A stretch of DNA of 30,663 bases, taken from a virus. The translations under genes were made by a program, and so were the position numbers. A model generated the notes under the pieces. That model ran no database searches. It worked only from the letters and a program-made list of their open reading frames with translations, and had not been told where the DNA came from. The DNA is taken from the IMG/VR virus record IMGVR_UViG_3300042924_003604, positions 1-30,663 of that record. One strand, given 5' to 3'. Numbering within the stretch: position 1 is the first letter of the stretch; every line of letters begins with the position of its first letter. Below are positions 6,268-19,261 of this stretch, one piece after another.

Positions 6268-6529
6268 CATCCCCAACCGCGATGAGCAGCACGGCGGCAT
6301 GGAAGCCGTCGGTGCGCTCAGTCAGAACCTGAAGGGTTGTCTTCGACGGAGTAACGGCTGGAGCCGGTTGGATTCAGGCGAACGCGAAGCGCTCGACATG
6401 ATCTGCCACAAGCTCGCCCGGGTGCTCTCCGGCGATAACCCCCACGATCCGGAACACTGGCGCGACATCGCCGGTTATGCCGTTGCCGCCCGCCGGGCGG
6501 ATCCACCTGCTGGCCCTACGGCCACCTAA
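6257..6529 (+). CDS. DUF6378-like phage protein
   Basis: The start is GTG 6257, 7 nt after GGAGGT (6244-6249). The 90-residue product ends with the typical block LDMICHKLARVLSGDNPHD, then EHWRDIAGYAVAAR. The pattern K-L-A-R-x-L-S-G-(5-7)-H-x-x-x-H-W-x-D-I-A-G-Y recurs in small phage proteins grouped as DUF6378, often in phage nucleotide-metabolism neighbourhoods. The biochemical function is not established to my knowledge. Its stop is 25 nt before the haloperoxidase start. Confidence 0.7.
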   Translation: MTVDIPNRDEQHGGMEAVGALSQNLKGCLRRSNGWSRLDSGEREALDMICHKLARVLSGDNPHDPEHWRDIAGYAVAARRADPPAGPTAT

Positions 6530-6554
6530 CCACCCAACAACCCAACAGCAGATC

Positions 6555-7871
6555 ATGCCCAATCAACAGTTCTCGAAGGGCTTCTATGCCGAGGATATGG
6601 CCGCCGCGCTGGAGGCCCCGGCTGAGAATCGCGCCGCTGCCTTCGCCGCCGTTCGCCTCAAGTCACAGGGCGGCATGCTGCCCGTCAACCCCCGCGCTGG
6701 CACGTTGCCGGCGTTGGAGCTGGTGGAGGAGCTGCCCCCATTTCCTGCGGATGACAGCGCCACCACTGCGGCCGAGCTGATCCAGGTCGCAATGGCCACC
6801 ACCTGGCTTCCGGATGTGCCCCTGCGGGATCTGCGCACCACCATCCAGGCCGCCGGCAACCCCCTCGAAGGGCTGGAGGTGGAGCTGGGCGCACCGGTGC
6901 GGCCTGCTGCTGCATTCCGCCTGGTGGACCAGGGCGAGAACAAGACGCCGATGATCTCCCAGCTGCTGCTGCGGCCATTCGAGGCGGGCAGCCTGGCGAT
7001 CGATCTCCGCCACCGCCTCGACCTGGGGCACTACGGATACCGCCCGGAGGCGCTCACGGCGCTGCTGAACGGCAAGCCGATCGAGTCGCAGGTGACCAGC
7101 TCGCGAACCCACTACATCCACACGCTGAGGGCGCTGGCGTCGAGCATGCGGGCCGATCCGCCGTACCTCTACGGCCTGCTTGCCGCCTGCATGCTGGACA
7201 CCCTGGGGGCGAAGCGCAGCAGCCTGTTCCCGGCGCTGCCGAAGGAGGCTGGTTTCGTGTTCTACGGCGGCCAGCTGGATGCGCAATGCCTGCTGGTGCA
7301 GGCGGTACGGCAGGCGATGAGTATGACCTGCTGGATGCAGAAGTGGGAGCAGGGCCAGCCCCAACGGGCCCGGCCCGAGGAGCTCATGGCAAACCCAGAG
7401 CGGCTCCATCCACTGTGGGCGGAACGTGGCGCGCCGCTGCTGGCCCGCCGTGGCCTGGGCCCCCATCTGCCGTTGCTGTCCGCAAAGGGTTCACCCATTC
7501 ACCCCTCGTACGTGAGCGGCCACGCCGTGATCGGCGGCGCCGTGGCAACGGTGCTGAATGCCGTCTACCGGGATGCCCCCTGGCCGGTGGCGATGGTGCA
7601 GGCGGACCCGTTGGGCCTGGAGCTGGTGCCAGCGAATGCGACAGCTCCGACCATCCACCAGGAGACACGGAAGCTGGGCGAGAACTACGGCATCGGGAGG
7701 GTGGTCGGTGGCCTCCACTACCTGTCAGATGTGCGCCAGGGTCTGCTGTTGGGGCAGCGGGTGGCGGAGCAGGTGCTGAGGGGGGCGAAGGTGAATGCGC
7801 GAGTGCTGGAGATCGAGGAGTGGGGATCGACCACCTTCGAGGGCTACTTCGGGACTACGGTTTCGATCTGA
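6555..7871 (+). CDS. vanadium-dependent haloperoxidase
   Basis: The start is ATG 6555 (438 residues); the frame opens at 6477 but that part overlaps the preceding gene. Vanadium haloperoxidases use vanadate and H2O2 to oxidise halides to hypohalous acid. The vanadate-site pattern is complete: K263 (MQKWEQ), R273 in RPEE, S321-G322-H323 in HPSYVSGHA, and R382 with H388 in GRVVGGLHYLSD, spaced as in the family (R-x5-H-x3-D). Departures are a slightly longer K-to-RP gap than in algal enzymes and Val in place of Pro before SGH. It is shorter than algal bromoperoxidases (about 600). No signal peptide is visible. The acid phosphatase (PAP2) superfamily shares this site, but the K-W and HPSY contexts favour haloperoxidase. 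The stop abuts the convergent late block. Confidence 0.85.
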   Translation: MPNQQFSKGFYAEDMAAALEAPAENRAAAFAAVRLKSQGGMLPVNPRAGTLPALELVEELPPFPADDSATTAAELIQVAMATTWLPDVPLRDLRTTIQAAGNPLEGLEVELGAPVRPAAAFRLVDQGENKTPMISQLLLRPFEAGSLAIDLRHRLDLGHYGYRPEALTALLNGKPIESQVTSSRTHYIHTLRALASSMRADPPYLYGLLAACMLDTLGAKRSSLFPALPKEAGFVFYGGQLDAQCLLVQAVRQAMSMTCWMQKWEQGQPQRARPEELMANPERLHPLWAERGAPLLARRGLGPHLPLLSAKGSPIHPSYVSGHAVIGGAVATVLNAVYRDAPWPVAMVQADPLGLELVPANATAPTIHQETRKLGENYGIGRVVGGLHYLSDVRQGLLLGQRVAEQVLRGAKVNARVLEIEEWGSTTFEGYFGTTVSI

Positions 7872-8268: not shown

Positions 8269-9009
8269 CTACTGCGGCCGCACATCGACGGCCCACCCGG
8301 TGGCGGGGCCGTCGGCTTCCCACCTCCTGCCCCAGTTCTTGCGGCTGTAGTGGATGCCGGCGCCGCCCGAGTGGTTGACGTAGCCGCCGCCGATCAGATC
8401 CGCCTCGCCGTTCGGGTCGTTGTGGATCCAGTCGGTGGGGGTGCAGCCGATCACGACGGTCCAATGGCCGCCGCCGGTGGGCGCAGTCGATGGGCCCTTG
8501 TGCAGCCAGCCGACGGGCACGGGCCGGCCCGCGGCCAGGGCGCCCTCCAGGAAGGCGGCGGTGCAGTTCGTCACGAGGCGGGCGGAGAGCCCCAGGTGGC
8601 GAAGGGTGGCGATCTGCGCCTCTGAGTTGGTGCTGTCGCCGAACTGGGCGCGGATCTTGTTGTAGGCATCGTCTGAGCCGATCTTCCCGTAGAACGCGGC
8701 CACCATGGCGCAGCTGCTACTGAAGCACTCGCGATAGCCGGTGCCGCTGGCGTTGTCGTTCTGGCTGAAGTAGGGCACCTTCAGCAGGATTCCGGCTTCC
8801 GGGTGCGGCTTGTCGGTCAGCTTCTTGCCCTGGCTCCAGGTGCTGAACCACGGTTCAGAACGGCGCATCACCTCGCTGTAGGGCCTGCCCTTCATCAGCT
8901 CTGATTCAAGCTCCACGATGGCGGCATCCTGCCGGGCGGCGGCTTCAGTGCCGGGGGCAGCCTTGTAGCGCCAGAGCTGCTGAAACGTGATGGGTGCTGG
9001 GTTGGTCAT
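8269..9009 (-). CDS. C39-like cysteine peptidase, putative endolysin
   Basis: A 246-residue protein. A helical first 70 residues precede a papain-like C39_2-type domain: KVPYFSQNDN with Gln83; RECFSSSCAM in which Cys95 aligns with the catalytic Cys of C-G-P-T-S-x-A-M motifs; GGGHWTVVIG with His182; and HNDPNGE with Asp198. These give a full Cys-His-Asp triad. Such domains cleave peptide bonds. In this place, after two small membrane proteins and at the end of the late genes, a cell-wall peptide target (endolysin) is the natural inference. Alternatively it could be a structural-protein maturation protease. There is no signal peptide. ATG 9009 overlaps the upstream stop by ATGA. Confidence 0.72.
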   Translation of the reverse strand: MTNPAPITFQQLWRYKAAPGTEAAARQDAAIVELESELMKGRPYSEVMRRSEPWFSTWSQGKKLTDKPHPEAGILLKVPYFSQNDNASGTGYRECFSSSCAMVAAFYGKIGSDDAYNKIRAQFGDSTNSEAQIATLRHLGLSARLVTNCTAAFLEGALAAGRPVPVGWLHKGPSTAPTGGGHWTVVIGCTPTDWIHNDPNGEADLIGGGYVNHSGGAGIHYSRKNWGRRWEADGPATGWAVDVRPQ

Positions 9010-14675: not shown

Positions 14676-15143
14676 TCAGAGACGGCAGGGGGTGCCCACG
14701 AGGGCGGTTGTGAACCGACGGGGCGGCACCTGCGCGCCGAGCGATTCCAGAGCGGAACCCACGGTGATCGTCACGGTCGAGGGGAACACCTCGCCGCCGC
14801 CAGTCACCTCACCGATCGCGGTCAACAGCACCACCTGCCCCGGCGGGGGGGTGTCGGGGCGTGTCGGGAGGTCGAATTGGTAGACGGTGATGGTGGCCAG
14901 CCAGCCTTCGGCCATGGCGTCATCGGCGGCGGTGGAGATCGCCGTGAGGCCCGGCAGGGTGATCGTGAGATCTGTTTCGTCAGCGCTGCCGGTGTTGGCC
15001 AGATCGCTGATTGAGAAGTCCACGAACTGGTAGGAGTCGGCCCCGATCGTGACCGGCGCCTGCCGATAGAAGCTCTGCAGGGCCAGCCCGGTGGCGTTGG
15101 TGGTCGGCTCCCACAGGCGGAGGAAGGTGGCGTGTTGGATCAT
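14676..15143 (-). CDS. minor tail protein between tape measure and hub
   Basis: 155 residues starting MIQHATFLRLWEPTTNATG, mostly beta, ending VGTPCRL. ATG 15143 overlaps the tape-measure stop by ATGA. The position corresponds to the gpM/gpL-type proteins of lambda that cap the tape measure and connect the hub. The sequence contains FVDFSISDLANTGSADETDL and a strand-rich core consistent with such proteins. No iron-sulfur Cys cluster like that of gpL is present (one Cys only). Confidence 0.6.
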   Translation of the reverse strand: MIQHATFLRLWEPTTNATGLALQSFYRQAPVTIGADSYQFVDFSISDLANTGSADETDLTITLPGLTAISTAADDAMAEGWLATITVYQFDLPTRPDTPPPGQVVLLTAIGEVTGGGEVFPSTVTITVGSALESLGAQVPPRRFTTALVGTPCRL

Positions 15144-17533
15144 CTGAGGCCCACCTGCTGGCGGTAGGAGGGCGACTTCAGGTTGCGACGCATCTCAGCA
15201 ACGGCCTGCCGAGCGGCATCACTGGCGAGGGTCTGGGCCTGCGCCAGCGTCACCCGGTCTTCGCCGTCTTGGCGCACCACCTTGGCCACGCGGGTGTTGA
15301 TGGTGATGCCGCCGCCGCCGGTTTCGCCAGCAGATCGCCGATTGCGCAGGGCTTCCAGTTCGCCGCGGATGGAATCAAGCGATGGTGTACCGGTGATCAG
15401 GCGGCCATAGGACGGGCTCACTTCAGTCACGCCAAACCCCAGCGAACGGATTGCCTCTGTCTTGATTCGCCCCTCATTGGCGCCTGTGATGCTTCTGCCC
15501 TCTTCCCGCCAGCCGGCCATGACTGCCCCCGCTGCGCGCATGTAATCGCCGGGGCTGTTGGCCAATGTTTCCAGCGCAATCTCCCGCCAGGATGGCTTGA
15601 GTGCTTGCGCACCCTTGGCGCCGCTGGCGATGTTGTTGGCGAAGGATCTAACCTTCGACCTTGGCACCACATACTCCGGTTCACCACCTTCACCGATCAG
15701 CGCGAGGGTGGGCTTGGTGACGTAGCCGCCCCTGGCGTACTGAGGAATCCGAATTCCGCCGATGGTGGTGTAGCTGCGTGGCGTCTGGTTGAAGCCGTAG
15801 TCAGTGGCACCAGTGGCCTGCAGCACCGACGACTGGTAGTTGACGTTTGCGATGTTGCGCCTGATGCCGCCGATCTGCCGGGCCTGGTTGAACTCCGCCT
15901 GTGCCGCATCGGCTGCCGCCTTGGCCTTGTCCAACTCCAGCCGGTAGTTCAGGATCTTCTCTAGGCCGATCTGCCCAGCGTTGTACATGGCAGCCGCCAG
16001 CGCCATCGTGGATTCGATCGCCTTGCGGTTCGAGATGGCGCGGTTCAACGCTGCCGCCTTCAGCTGCTCCTCCGCCTGGATCTGCAGGTTGGTGGCCTCC
16101 AGCTGGAGCCGCGCCGATTCGGCTTCCATCTGGGCAATCTGCCGCCCGATCGCCAGCTTCTCCTCATCTGTCTGGGCCAGCGCCAGCCGGTTCTGCAGGA
16201 TCGTCTTGCCGAGGTTGTTGTAGGCCTGCGCCAGGGTGTTCTCCTCACCCGCCAACGCAAGGCGCCGTTGCTGCGCTGCGGAGATCAGATCGATCTGAGC
16301 GGCCTGCTTTTCGTAGGCGCTGCCGGCACGCTCCAGCCAGTAGGCGCGACCTTCCTCCTCTTTGCGCAGCGCTTCGGCGGCGGCCTTCTGCGTCTCGGCG
16401 GCAGCGGCGGATTCCCGCTGCTTAAGTGTAATTTCCTCAAGATTGCCCTCTGCTTCCTTCATCGCCTTTCCAAAGTCCAATCCACTGCCAGCCAGCTTTT
16501 CGCCTTCTTCTTTCGCCTTCTTCATTTCAACCGCAATTTTTCCTATAGCAACCGCACCAATCCCAAGCCCAGCCGCAGCAGCAAGCAACCCGATCGGATT
16601 GGCCATCGTGGTGGCATTGAACAATCCTTGCGCCAGCGCAGCCGCAGCCACTGCACCCTGGTAAGCCTTGTAAGCGACAACGGCCGCCGCAATGGGGCCG
16701 GCAATTTTTACAAGCTCGACAACTGTTGATGCAATACCCTTCGCAAACGCACCGATCGCCCCTTCGTTTTGCTTGAGCCAATTTTGCCCTGTCGTAATCA
16801 GCCCGCCAATGAACTCAGTCCCTTTGATCATGCTGGGCAATAACTGTTCCAGTATGGTCACACCTAAAGACGTGAACTGCATCTTTAATGTTTCAATGCG
16901 ATCATTGTAAATGCCAGCGCTTTTTGCAAACTCCGTGGTTATTCCAGTATTCAATCCCCTGATTGCCTCTGACCCCGTGTTAAGCAATGGCACCAGAGCC
17001 GCACCACTGCGCCCGAATATCCTTATCGCAAGGCTGGCCTTTTCTGCGCCGTCTTCCATCACGGCAAACCTATCAATTAAATCAAACATCACCTCGTCCG
17101 GCTTTCTTAGCTTTCCAGATGTATCAACTGCAGACACCCCAAGAGTCTGCAAGGCGTTAGCGGCGTCCTTTCCCTGGCCTATCGCAATCTCGCCCATGCT
17201 TCGCGAAAGCCTGGTCAGGGCTTTCGCGACATCTTCCGTTTGCAAACCCGACATTCGCGCCGCGGCGCCAAGCTTTGCCAGCGACTCAACCGACGCGCCA
17301 GACCACTGCGAAAGCTCATCCAAGCCATCGGCCATGTCGATGATGCCCTTGGTGGCACTCGCCAGCCCGACTCCCCCCACGGCCACACCTAGGCCGGTGA
17401 AAGCAGTGGCGATGGCGCCAAGGCTAGAGGCGCTTTTCGTCAGCCCACCGATCGCAGTGCCCAGCGCCTTAACCTCACCCGCGCCGCTGGCCTTGGCGTT
17501 GATCTTGAAGAGCGCGTCATACGTTACGGCCAT
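15140..17533 (-). CDS. tail tape measure protein
   Basis: 797 residues. It fixes tail length and takes part in DNA delivery; at about 0.15 nm per residue it would set a tail near 120 nm. The N-terminal 250 residues are helical with the common MADGLDELSQWSGASVE-type segment. Two hydrophobic stretches follow (about 275-300, IAGPIAAAVVAYKAY; 310-335, IGLLAAAAGLGIGAVAIG). After them comes a long Ala/Glu/Lys coiled coil. The C-terminal part has the frequent tape-measure block YARGGYVTKPTLALIGEGGE. It starts at ATG 17533 sharing TGATG with the chaperone gene. Part of it (about 16430-17340) looks clearly poorer in G+C than the rest. Confidence 0.88.
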   Translation of the reverse strand: MAVTYDALFKINAKASGAGEVKALGTAIGGLTKSASSLGAIATAFTGLGVAVGGVGLASATKGIIDMADGLDELSQWSGASVESLAKLGAAARMSGLQTEDVAKALTRLSRSMGEIAIGQGKDAANALQTLGVSAVDTSGKLRKPDEVMFDLIDRFAVMEDGAEKASLAIRIFGRSGAALVPLLNTGSEAIRGLNTGITTEFAKSAGIYNDRIETLKMQFTSLGVTILEQLLPSMIKGTEFIGGLITTGQNWLKQNEGAIGAFAKGIASTVVELVKIAGPIAAAVVAYKAYQGAVAAAALAQGLFNATTMANPIGLLAAAAGLGIGAVAIGKIAVEMKKAKEEGEKLAGSGLDFGKAMKEAEGNLEEITLKQRESAAAAETQKAAAEALRKEEEGRAYWLERAGSAYEKQAAQIDLISAAQQRRLALAGEENTLAQAYNNLGKTILQNRLALAQTDEEKLAIGRQIAQMEAESARLQLEATNLQIQAEEQLKAAALNRAISNRKAIESTMALAAAMYNAGQIGLEKILNYRLELDKAKAAADAAQAEFNQARQIGGIRRNIANVNYQSSVLQATGATDYGFNQTPRSYTTIGGIRIPQYARGGYVTKPTLALIGEGGEPEYVVPRSKVRSFANNIASGAKGAQALKPSWREIALETLANSPGDYMRAAGAVMAGWREEGRSITGANEGRIKTEAIRSLGFGVTEVSPSYGRLITGTPSLDSIRGELEALRNRRSAGETGGGGITINTRVAKVVRQDGEDRVTLAQAQTLASDAARQAVAEMRRNLKSPSYRQQVGLR

Positions 17534-17946
17534 CAGGATTCCTCGCTGCTGTCAGGCTTCGCCACGCGGAACTCATGTAGCCAGGTTCCCTCCATGATAC
17601 CCACGTCCGCCAACAACGCCGCCCGCTTCTTCCGCTTCACCCCATCCAGCTCCATGATCGACAGCAGCACGCCATAGTCCAGGCCGAGGTAGCCGTTGGG
17701 GCCGGTGCGCCATTGGGTCAGCACCCGGCAGAACAGCTCCACCGCTGGCACCGCCTCTGGCTCGATCTCCAGGTCTTCCTCTGGTGGCACCGCCAGCGCT
17801 TCCGGTGGCAAGGTCACCCCCTGAAGCGCTGCCGTTTCCCGTAACTTTTCGGCCGCATCATCCAACCCCTTGCGATCATCCCGCAAGAGGTAGCGTGCGA
17901 CCGCTTCTAGTTTTTTGCCTTCTTCCCGCTGAGCGATTCGTTCCAC
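17533..17946 (-). CDS. frameshift extension of the tail assembly chaperone (gpT-like)
   Basis: This frame overlaps the end of the upstream chaperone frame and lies -1 to it. It opens with GTG 17946, but it is more likely entered at the slippery site: after AAAAAAC the -1 frame reads Leu-Glu-Ala-Val-Ala and continues for 125 codons, giving a 251-residue fusion. The body is helical and acidic (KGLDDAAEKLRETAALQG; EDLEIEPEAVPAVELF). In lambda the G and GT proteins made this way coat the tape measure during tail assembly. The position between tube and tape-measure genes is exactly that of G/T. Confidence 0.78.
   Translation of the reverse strand: MERIAQREEGKKLEAVARYLLRDDRKGLDDAAEKLRETAALQGVTLPPEALAVPPEEDLEIEPEAVPAVELFCRVLTQWRTGPNGYLGLDYGVLLSIMELDGVKRKKRAALLADVGIMEGTWLHEFRVAKPDSSEES
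17866..17890 (-). other. hairpin downstream of the frameshift site
   Basis: On the - strand CCTCTTGCG (17890-17882) can pair with CGCAAGGGG (17874-17866), a 9-bp stem with one G-U pair and a 7-nt loop. It begins 19 nt after the slippery heptamer, farther than the usual 5-9 nt, so its role as a stimulator is uncertain. Confidence 0.4.
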
Positions 17947-18287
17947 GCCTCGACGATCGCCCGGGCGGCGCCGCCGTAGGAGAGGAGCTGCTCCAATCCT
18001 TCGGCCGTGAACGGCACCGTGCCAGCATCACCGGGCATGTCCTCCCAGCCGATCATCACCTCTGGCGCGATGCCAAGGTCAGTGTCGGAATCCTTGGGCT
18101 CCGATCCGGTCATCAGTGAACGATTCGCACTCAGTGCACGCTTCAGAATCGCCTCCGATTCCTGCTGCGTGAACCGCTTGAATCGCCCCTGAAACTCCAG
18201 GGTTTCAATATCACCCCCATCAACCGGAACAGGCACCTTCACCGGCCACTTGTAGGAATCACTGAGCTTGCCAAAAGTGAGCGCCAT
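17907..18287 (-). CDS. tail assembly chaperone (gpG-like)
   Basis: 126 residues starting MALTFGKLSDSYKWPVKV, a beta-rich first half (VPVDGGDIETLEFQGRFKRF) then helices (ESEAILKRALSANRS; EGLEQLLSYGGAARAIVEAW). The length, the place directly after the tube gene and the overlapping -1 frame identify it as the short tail chaperone. It ends Gly-Lys-Lys-Ala-Lys-Asn-stop, the last codons being the slippery sequence GCA AAA AAC TAG. Confidence 0.78.
   Translation of the reverse strand: MALTFGKLSDSYKWPVKVPVPVDGGDIETLEFQGRFKRFTQQESEAILKRALSANRSLMTGSEPKDSDTDLGIAPEVMIGWEDMPGDAGTVPFTAEGLEQLLSYGGAARAIVEAWNESLSGKKAKN
17910..17916 (-). promoter_or_regulatory. -1 ribosomal frameshift heptamer A AAA AAC
   Basis: Read on the - strand, codons GCA AAA AAC are followed at once by the zero-frame stop TAG. 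A-AAA-AAC in this phase (X XXY YYZ) is a classical -1 slippery sequence, and a -1 shift enters the long downstream frame. A purine stretch GGGAAGAAGG lies just upstream. Confidence 0.8.
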
Positions 18288-18307: not shown

Positions 18308-19261
18308 TTAAGTATAGGCGATCGACAGCTCAGAGGTTCCATCGGTCGAGATCGGCGCAAACGGTAGGTTGATGAACCTGGTCCCGTTGTCGAGCGTCGC
18401 AAAGCTCTGCTCGTAGATGTCCGCCTTGCCGACCGTGACGGTGCTACGAGTGCCGGCCGTCCCGCCGGTGTGGCCCACCACGATCGGGTAGGTCAGGTCA
18501 GACTCAGCCAGCGCCCAGAAGTTCTGGCCCGCGATCAGCTTGTCTTCCACCTGGATGCGCCCCTCGGGGTTCGATCCGGTCATCGACAGCTTCTCAGTGC
18601 AGCCGGCCCGGTTGGAATGTACCAGGTCGTTGTTCAGCGCCACCTCAAACTCCGACATGCAGCACGCCACAGCGTTGATCGTCACCAATGGCGTGTTGGT
18701 GCTGTTCACCTCCACCGCCAGGCCCTGGTTCGCGTAGGTGCCGGCTGCGTAGGTGATATCAGTCGGCTGGCTGTAGATCCCTTGAAACTCGAAGTCGATC
18801 CTCGGATATTCGCCGCTGTTGCGGATGATGGTCGCGGTTCCGTAGGCGCCGGAGAACTGGTGCTGAATCGCCTGGCCGCTGGCCGTGTCCTTCTCCACCC
18901 ATCGCATCGTCAGCGACTTGATGCCGGTGCTCACCAATGAGTAGGTGACGGACACACCGGTAACGATGGTCTCGGTGAAGCGGCACGCCAGCAGCAGGGG
19001 CCCATAGGCCGGGGCAGTCCCCACCACCCCGCTGCCGCCATCCTCGACCGAAAAAGTCATCGTCACCCGCTTGTTGATCAGCCGCTTTCGGTCAGCACCG
19101 AACCAGGGCTTGGCCTGGCCGCGCTCCAACCGATCGGCCACCAGCGGCGACAGCTCCGGATCCTTGAGGATCAGCAGCGGGGTGTAGGGGCTCGCCGGGG
19201 GCGTGCCGTAGATGGCCTCCTCCTTGAACGTGAGGAGGGCCTGGTTCCTGTTGATGGGCAT
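18308..19261 (-). CDS. major tail tube protein
   Basis: 317 residues (MPINRNQALLTFKEEAIYG). The opening T-F-K-E-E-A-x-Y-G-T-P and the later KDPELSPLVADRLERG plus FEFQGIYSQPTDI are typical of siphophage tail tube subunits. An Ig-like or beta C-terminus (RSTVTVGKADIYEQSFATLD) follows. The tube protein lies between the tail-end protein and the chaperones, as expected. It is longer than lambda gpV (246) and may carry an extra domain. A short region with adjacent Cys (VACCMSEF) is unusual but not diagnostic. Confidence 0.8.
   Translation of the reverse strand: MPINRNQALLTFKEEAIYGTPPASPYTPLLILKDPELSPLVADRLERGQAKPWFGADRKRLINKRVTMTFSVEDGGSGVVGTAPAYGPLLLACRFTETIVTGVSVTYSLVSTGIKSLTMRWVEKDTASGQAIQHQFSGAYGTATIIRNSGEYPRIDFEFQGIYSQPTDITYAAGTYANQGLAVEVNSTNTPLVTINAVACCMSEFEVALNNDLVHSNRAGCTEKLSMTGSNPEGRIQVEDKLIAGQNFWALAESDLTYPIVVGHTGGTAGTRSTVTVGKADIYEQSFATLDNGTRFINLPFAPISTDGTSELSIAYT

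Follow-up and report, generated by a model that had tools for sequence, protein, structure and literature searches.

Frameshifted tail chaperones are textbook phage biology. In phage lambda the gene order is tail protein, G, T and tape measure, and a -1 shift takes place near the end of G on a heptamer of the form X_XXY_YYZ; according to the consulted part of PMC5009743, which covers the lambda system, the position between the tail-tube and tape-measure genes is the classical one for a G/GT chaperone. The lambda heptamer is G_GGA_AAG with the stop codon 15 nt downstream, and the mean slip-to-stop distance in two phage sets is 26 and 36 nt (excerpt of PMC10885494). In the portions of the literature consulted, a stop codon abutting the slip site has so far been printed for single phages, namely Burkholderia phage KL1, with G_GGA_AAC directly before TGA (PMC3483164), and Acinetobacter phage Loki, with A_AAA_AAC directly before TAA (PMC5313236), dnaX cases with a stop directly past the slip site being on record as well. 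Among eukaryotic viruses, Rous sarcoma virus and barley yellow dwarf virus (BYDV) have a stop past the slip (passages of PMC4373837), and these two and PEMV combine a stop at, or 3 nt past, the slip with a 3' structure, although on eukaryotic ribosomes and with unrelated proteins (passages of PMC4373837 and PMC4737148). A stop close to the slip is described as raising frameshifting in plant viruses, and a change of the nearby PEMV stop into a sense codon cut frameshifting in vitro by 72% (section of PMC4737148 consulted). In E. coli, by the authors' account in the consulted part of PMC4373837, frameshifting at the HIV slip site fell when a stop was placed behind that site, and it vanished once release factor 2 was raised. 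The excerpt of PMC4066793 describes an IS cluster with A_AAA_AAC and proven frameshifting that has no established stimulator. In the open-licence literature we found no paper that describes the abutting stop for a whole family and none that brings DUF1799 together with a frameshift; for Drexlerviridae and cyanophages, judged from listings and from passages of PMC9915841, PMC3483164 and PMC5313236, we identified none that describes the pattern.

The window analysed here is a 30,663-base virus record, the minus strand of which carries most structural genes. Judged by Pfam families and gene order, the locus under study is a G/GT tail-assembly chaperone, with the following features:

17907..18287, minus strand: G, the short tail assembly chaperone, 126 aa (Phage_TAC_4, PF08748; PHROG 569)
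17533..17910, minus strand: T region in the -1 frame, 125 aa past the slip (DUF1799, PF08809; PHROG 680)
17910..17916, minus strand: slippery heptamer A_AAA_AAC, identified by phase and conservation, the amino acid of the X-holding codon varying
17907..17909, minus strand: 0-frame stop UAG adjoining the heptamer, read as CUA G in the -1 frame; conserved family-wide
17850..17903, minus strand: predicted 3' stem-loop from folding, 23 pairs with bulges, spacer of 6 nt from the heptamer
17918..17927, minus strand: purine-rich GGGAAGAAGG, a weak Shine-Dalgarno-like element, enriched family-wide and not significant in the window
15140..17533, minus strand: tape measure protein gene, from PHROG tape-measure matches; its ATG overlaps the T stop
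18308..19261, minus strand: tail tube protein (Phage_tube_2, by Pfam), upstream of G

The identity of the pair follows from its Pfam matches and from its place between the tail-tube gene upstream and the tape-measure gene downstream. G reaches 25.9 bits against Phage_TAC_4 and T 60.6 bits against DUF1799, which in both cases passes the Pfam gathering cut-off (21.1 and 26, respectively), and in PHROG both fall in tail families. The two ORFs overlap with T in -1 relative to G, and a predicted 3' structure stands at short spacing, which is common but not universal in G/GT chaperones. Alignment-based searches against solved structures gave no match for G or T at E 0.1. A putative frameshift of the known G/GT kind, as expected in a long-tailed phage, is well supported by comparison. 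The T stop and the tape measure ATG overlap as TGATG (17533-17535), and a tape measure start at most 8 bases from the T stop is common among relatives, so that translation of the tape measure may be coupled to that of GT.

Whereas lambda shares the gene order and the type of shift, its chaperone belongs to a different Pfam family (Phage_TAC_2), and the T of KL1 and Loki likewise belongs to another, Phage_TAC_18. Closer counterparts exist in other phages. The T1-like (Drexlerviridae) Klebsiella phage Solomon carries Phage_TAC_4 and DUF1799 with A_AAA_AAC adjoining the stop, and its record annotates a frameshift product; it differs in that the stop is TAA and T is ~40% identical over half its length. 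Synechococcus phages S-CBS1, S-LBS1 and S-CBS3 share both the A_AAA_AAC adjoining the stop and the 3' stem-loop, but have TGA as the stop and G and T that are only 27-35% identical, the G of S-CBS1 and S-LBS1 falling below the Phage_TAC_4 cut-off. In the records of these three, T is a separate ORF or only partly annotated.

The sequence-only reading of this DNA had G ending in GCA AAA AAC TAG, with the heptamer in the exact phase for -1 slippage, adjoining the stop and leading into an overlapping frame for a 251-residue fusion. All of this agrees with what we find on the minus strand, a strand absent from the earlier description: the G ORF runs from 18287 to 17907, the X_XXY_YYZ heptamer occupies 17916-17910, and T is in the -1 frame, in which the reading beyond the slip begins LEAVARYLL... 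and the total product is 251 aa. AAAAAAC occurs once in the window versus 0.74 copies expected by chance, meaning that the bare heptamer is not rare. The evidence for the slip site is its place, its phase and its conservation.

To follow this conservation, 205 loci (L002-L206, the annotated Synechococcus phages being L024-L026) were collected via protein similarity, the DNA motif not being used. Two of the sets of relatives kept the best 80 of 566 and the best 80 of 317, and consequently the sample leans to near relatives. From 207 sequences loaded, 14 without a T or G profile match were left out of the junction count; left out were L004, L035, L193, L194, L196 and L197, truncated at the junction or short of it, L022 and L023, which did not look related, L001, which is the window itself, and, from the main count, L202-L205 and L008. 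The resulting 193 sequences, window included, collapsed to 139 distinct 120-nt junctions, with the window merged into L002. The heptamer adjoins the stop in 119 of these 139 sampled junctions, and in 11 of 13 extra annotated isolates from Serratia, Pseudomonas, Klebsiella, Cronobacter, Pectobacterium, Escherichia, Variovorax, Vibrio and a Campylobacter-labelled source. The expected conservation of the heptamer in homologues holds at most junctions and fails in two isolates, Klebsiella phage VLCpiS8c and Pectobacterium phage Taid (L211, L212), whose sole slip is of the A_AAG type, with CAA AAG near the stop, one of them still adjoining the stop. Outside the main count, the heptamer adjoins the stop in all four prophage-type loci L202-L205 and also in L008. 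No relative with a single uninterrupted frame, which would have spoken against a frameshift, turned up: T lies in -1 in 139/139 distinct junctions and 13/13 isolates.

Overall, the heptamer adjoins the stop in 131 of 153 junctions of this sample and the 13 isolates, counting the window and L002 both, although they are one junction. The abutting heptamers are AAAAAAC in 127 cases, GGGAAAC in three and AAAAAAT in one, and their stops are TGA (78), TAA (42) or TAG (11). This set includes divergent Synechococcus, Klebsiella, Escherichia, Pseudomonas, Vibrio and Variovorax phages; nearest to the window, nine loci with a G identity of 79-99% (L002, L003, L005-L011) have A_AAA_AAC followed directly by TAG, L004 not being scored among them since it ends before the slip site. 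Eight amino acids (R, A, T, L, V, S, Q, E) are encoded by the X-holding codon at the surveyed abutting junctions, yet in all A-heptamers this codon has A as its third base. Given the amino acids, codon usage would produce A_AAA_AAC with a probability of 10^-38.8, with 27 clusters treated as independent. A table by Xu et al. from 2004 may already show abutting stops.

A stop immediately after the slip site had been called unusual, with the suggestion that it may add to pausing; the precedents cited above have such a stop lowering frameshifting at the HIV site in E. coli and raising it in plant viruses. The word unusual is apt in comparison with other tail chaperones, given the mean distances and the lambda spacing cited above, but not within the Phage_TAC_4/DUF1799 family, of which the abutting stop, by the junction counts, is a conserved trait. 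What was once read as a curiosity of one phage is shared by a wide range of phages, the identity of the stop turning over. In a tree of 107 T sequences, from which the first two T residues were excluded, abutting versus distant stop requires 5 changes, while stop identity among abutting rows changed at least 15 times; these counts are rough because few columns were available and 45 of 104 inner branches are open. The changes in identity indicate that it is the position that is kept.

Downstream of the stop, the 9-bp hairpin earlier described at a distance of 19 nt is indeed present, but as the tip of a longer, bulged stem-loop of 23 pairs (17903-17850). A self-standing hairpin at that spacing was rejected, as the full stem-loop starts 6 nt past the heptamer. 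Folding of the 65 nt that begin at the stop gives -33.5 kcal/mol (z -5.4), which none of 200 dinucleotide shuffles reached, and over 60 nt of the window none of 500 synonymous T-frame shuffles was equally stable. In a nine-row alignment holding 7 distinct sequences, 93.8% of cells are paired versus 27-54% with a slid partner. The window clade gives limited covariation: both sides have changed in 3 of 23 pairs, a count reached by 375 of 500 shuffles, and the covariation score was reached by 4 of 500, while two other clades have one doubly changed pair each. Among 69 representatives, mean 50-nt energy is lowest for windows beginning at the stop, at an MFE of -17.87 versus -12.77 (sd 0.45) in synonymous shuffles, with only 35 of the 69 falling within the lowest 5% of their own shuffles.

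Bacterial cassettes of the dnaX type consist of a Shine-Dalgarno, a heptamer and a stem-loop (consulted part of PMC5009743), the Shine-Dalgarno-like site being placed some 10 nt upstream. The purine-rich stretch noted just upstream of the heptamer is present as GGGAAGAAGG at 17927-17918, but its Shine-Dalgarno character is weak: the site in the window is GGGAAG, which ranks 32 of 100 synonymous shuffles. Most relatives carry a Shine-Dalgarno-like site close to this place; over the family its centre falls some 10-15 nt ahead of the heptamer, with an energy of -5.17 versus -4.13 kcal/mol in synonymous shuffles (z -4.8), and only 2 of 69 sequences rank among the lowest 5% of their respective shuffles. 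We rejected a Shine-Dalgarno element as a shown part of the window, its significance being family-wide.

Support for the G-GT style reading comes from the protein families, the gene order and the phase, from a heptamer and frame maintained in distant relatives, from the conserved 3' stem-loop, and from the near absence of alternative T starts. We infer with high confidence that a programmed -1 frameshift of the lambda G/GT type yields G and a G-T fusion. Most ribosomes would read GCA AAA AAC and terminate at UAG to give the 126-residue chaperone G, and a minority would slip back one base at A_AAA_AAC, upon which CUA replaces UAG and the 251-residue G-T fusion is made. If lambda is a guide, the tape measure protein would be coated by G, and tail-tube subunits would be brought in by the T part. 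The likely stimulator is the modelled stem-loop with its 6-nt spacer, and the abutting stop would put the slip in competition with release factor, thereby setting the GT:G ratio. Could T instead be a separate protein with a start of its own, made through translational coupling and without any fusion? The window does contain a T-frame GTG at 17946, from which a 137-aa ORF is listed, and depositors of several relatives annotate T as its own ORF; for annotation, T is listed as separate or truncated in several of the GenBank records examined. However, 125 of the 131 abutting junctions have no T-frame ATG, GTG or TTG between the upstream stop and the slip, which makes independent initiation of T unlikely, and in the close relatives L003, L005 and L007 the T frame closes just before the heptamer. 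With the heptamer itself conserved, we regard a separately initiated T as very improbable. Slippage of RNA polymerase on the A-run, rather than of the ribosome, we regard as very improbable for the window. There is a run of 6 A on which it could act, but 6 A is short for polymerase slippage, and abutting junctions nearly always have only this number. Moreover, GGGAAAC replaces AAAAAAC in several lineages, fitting tandem tRNA slippage, and the phase and the NNA codon are conserved. Polymerase slippage is plausible in a related clade of ten loci, L012-L021, which have CGA AAA AAA ACC and a stop 27 nt past the heptamer; on their eight-A run (e.g. L012:2087-2094) it may have replaced ribosomal slippage.

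With a ribosomal frameshift as the preferred reading, what then is the role of the abutting stop? It may be an integral, selected element of the signal, with heptamer, stop and stem-loop acting together and the race between slippage and release factor setting the GT:G ratio for tail assembly, a proposal we hold tentatively and place just short of an even chance. Compatible with the frameshift, and concerning the stop alone, is that it abuts only because G needs nothing past Lys-Asn, or because the -1 frame needs Leu, with frameshifting unaffected; this is quite possible, if on balance doubtful. The first T codon is indeed CTG or CTA in 130 of the 131 abutting junctions. The 22 of 153 junctions that are not abutting by heptamer include whole clades, namely one with A_AAA_AAA and the stop 27 nt on and a G_GGA_AAC clade (L032, L034, L041, L068, L090) with the stop 24 nt on, besides L121 and L206. 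At the abutting junctions, were that stop lacking, the next one in the 0 frame would come at a median of 63 nt. The clades with a distant stop retain heptamer and frame, and it follows that the abutting stop is not essential. Against a stop without effect, Leu via CTC, CTT or CTG+G would give no stop, and none of these is found at abutting sites. Given Leu and the next T-codon base, the probability from codon usage of a stop in all clusters is 10^-8.2 over 31 clusters below 50% identity and 10^-18.4 over 82 clusters below 90%, both values being too strong since related clusters are treated as independent. Furthermore, in other clades G accommodates a further 8-9 residues. Amino-acid constraint alone thus does not appear to explain the conservation of the stop. 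The G_GGA_AAC clade, which keeps the Shine-Dalgarno-like site and the stem-loop, provides a natural contrast on the role of the stop, and the broad conservation permits a direct test of whether release-factor competition sets chaperone stoichiometry. If it does, the family would provide, on a large scale and in bacterial viruses, a counterpart to the stop-coupled frameshift sites of some eukaryotic viruses.

Elsewhere in the window, a 464-aa ORF at 6477-7871 (plus strand) has a sub-threshold match to the PAP2 superfamily (26.6 bits, cut-off 27.2) and by eye looks like a vanadium haloperoxidase; such an enzyme would be unusual for a phage. A dCTP deaminase-like ORF lies at 954-1463 on the plus strand (Pfam DCD, 99.7 bits), and a Peptidase_C39-like ORF at 8269-9009 on the minus strand (27.3 bits, cut-off 24).
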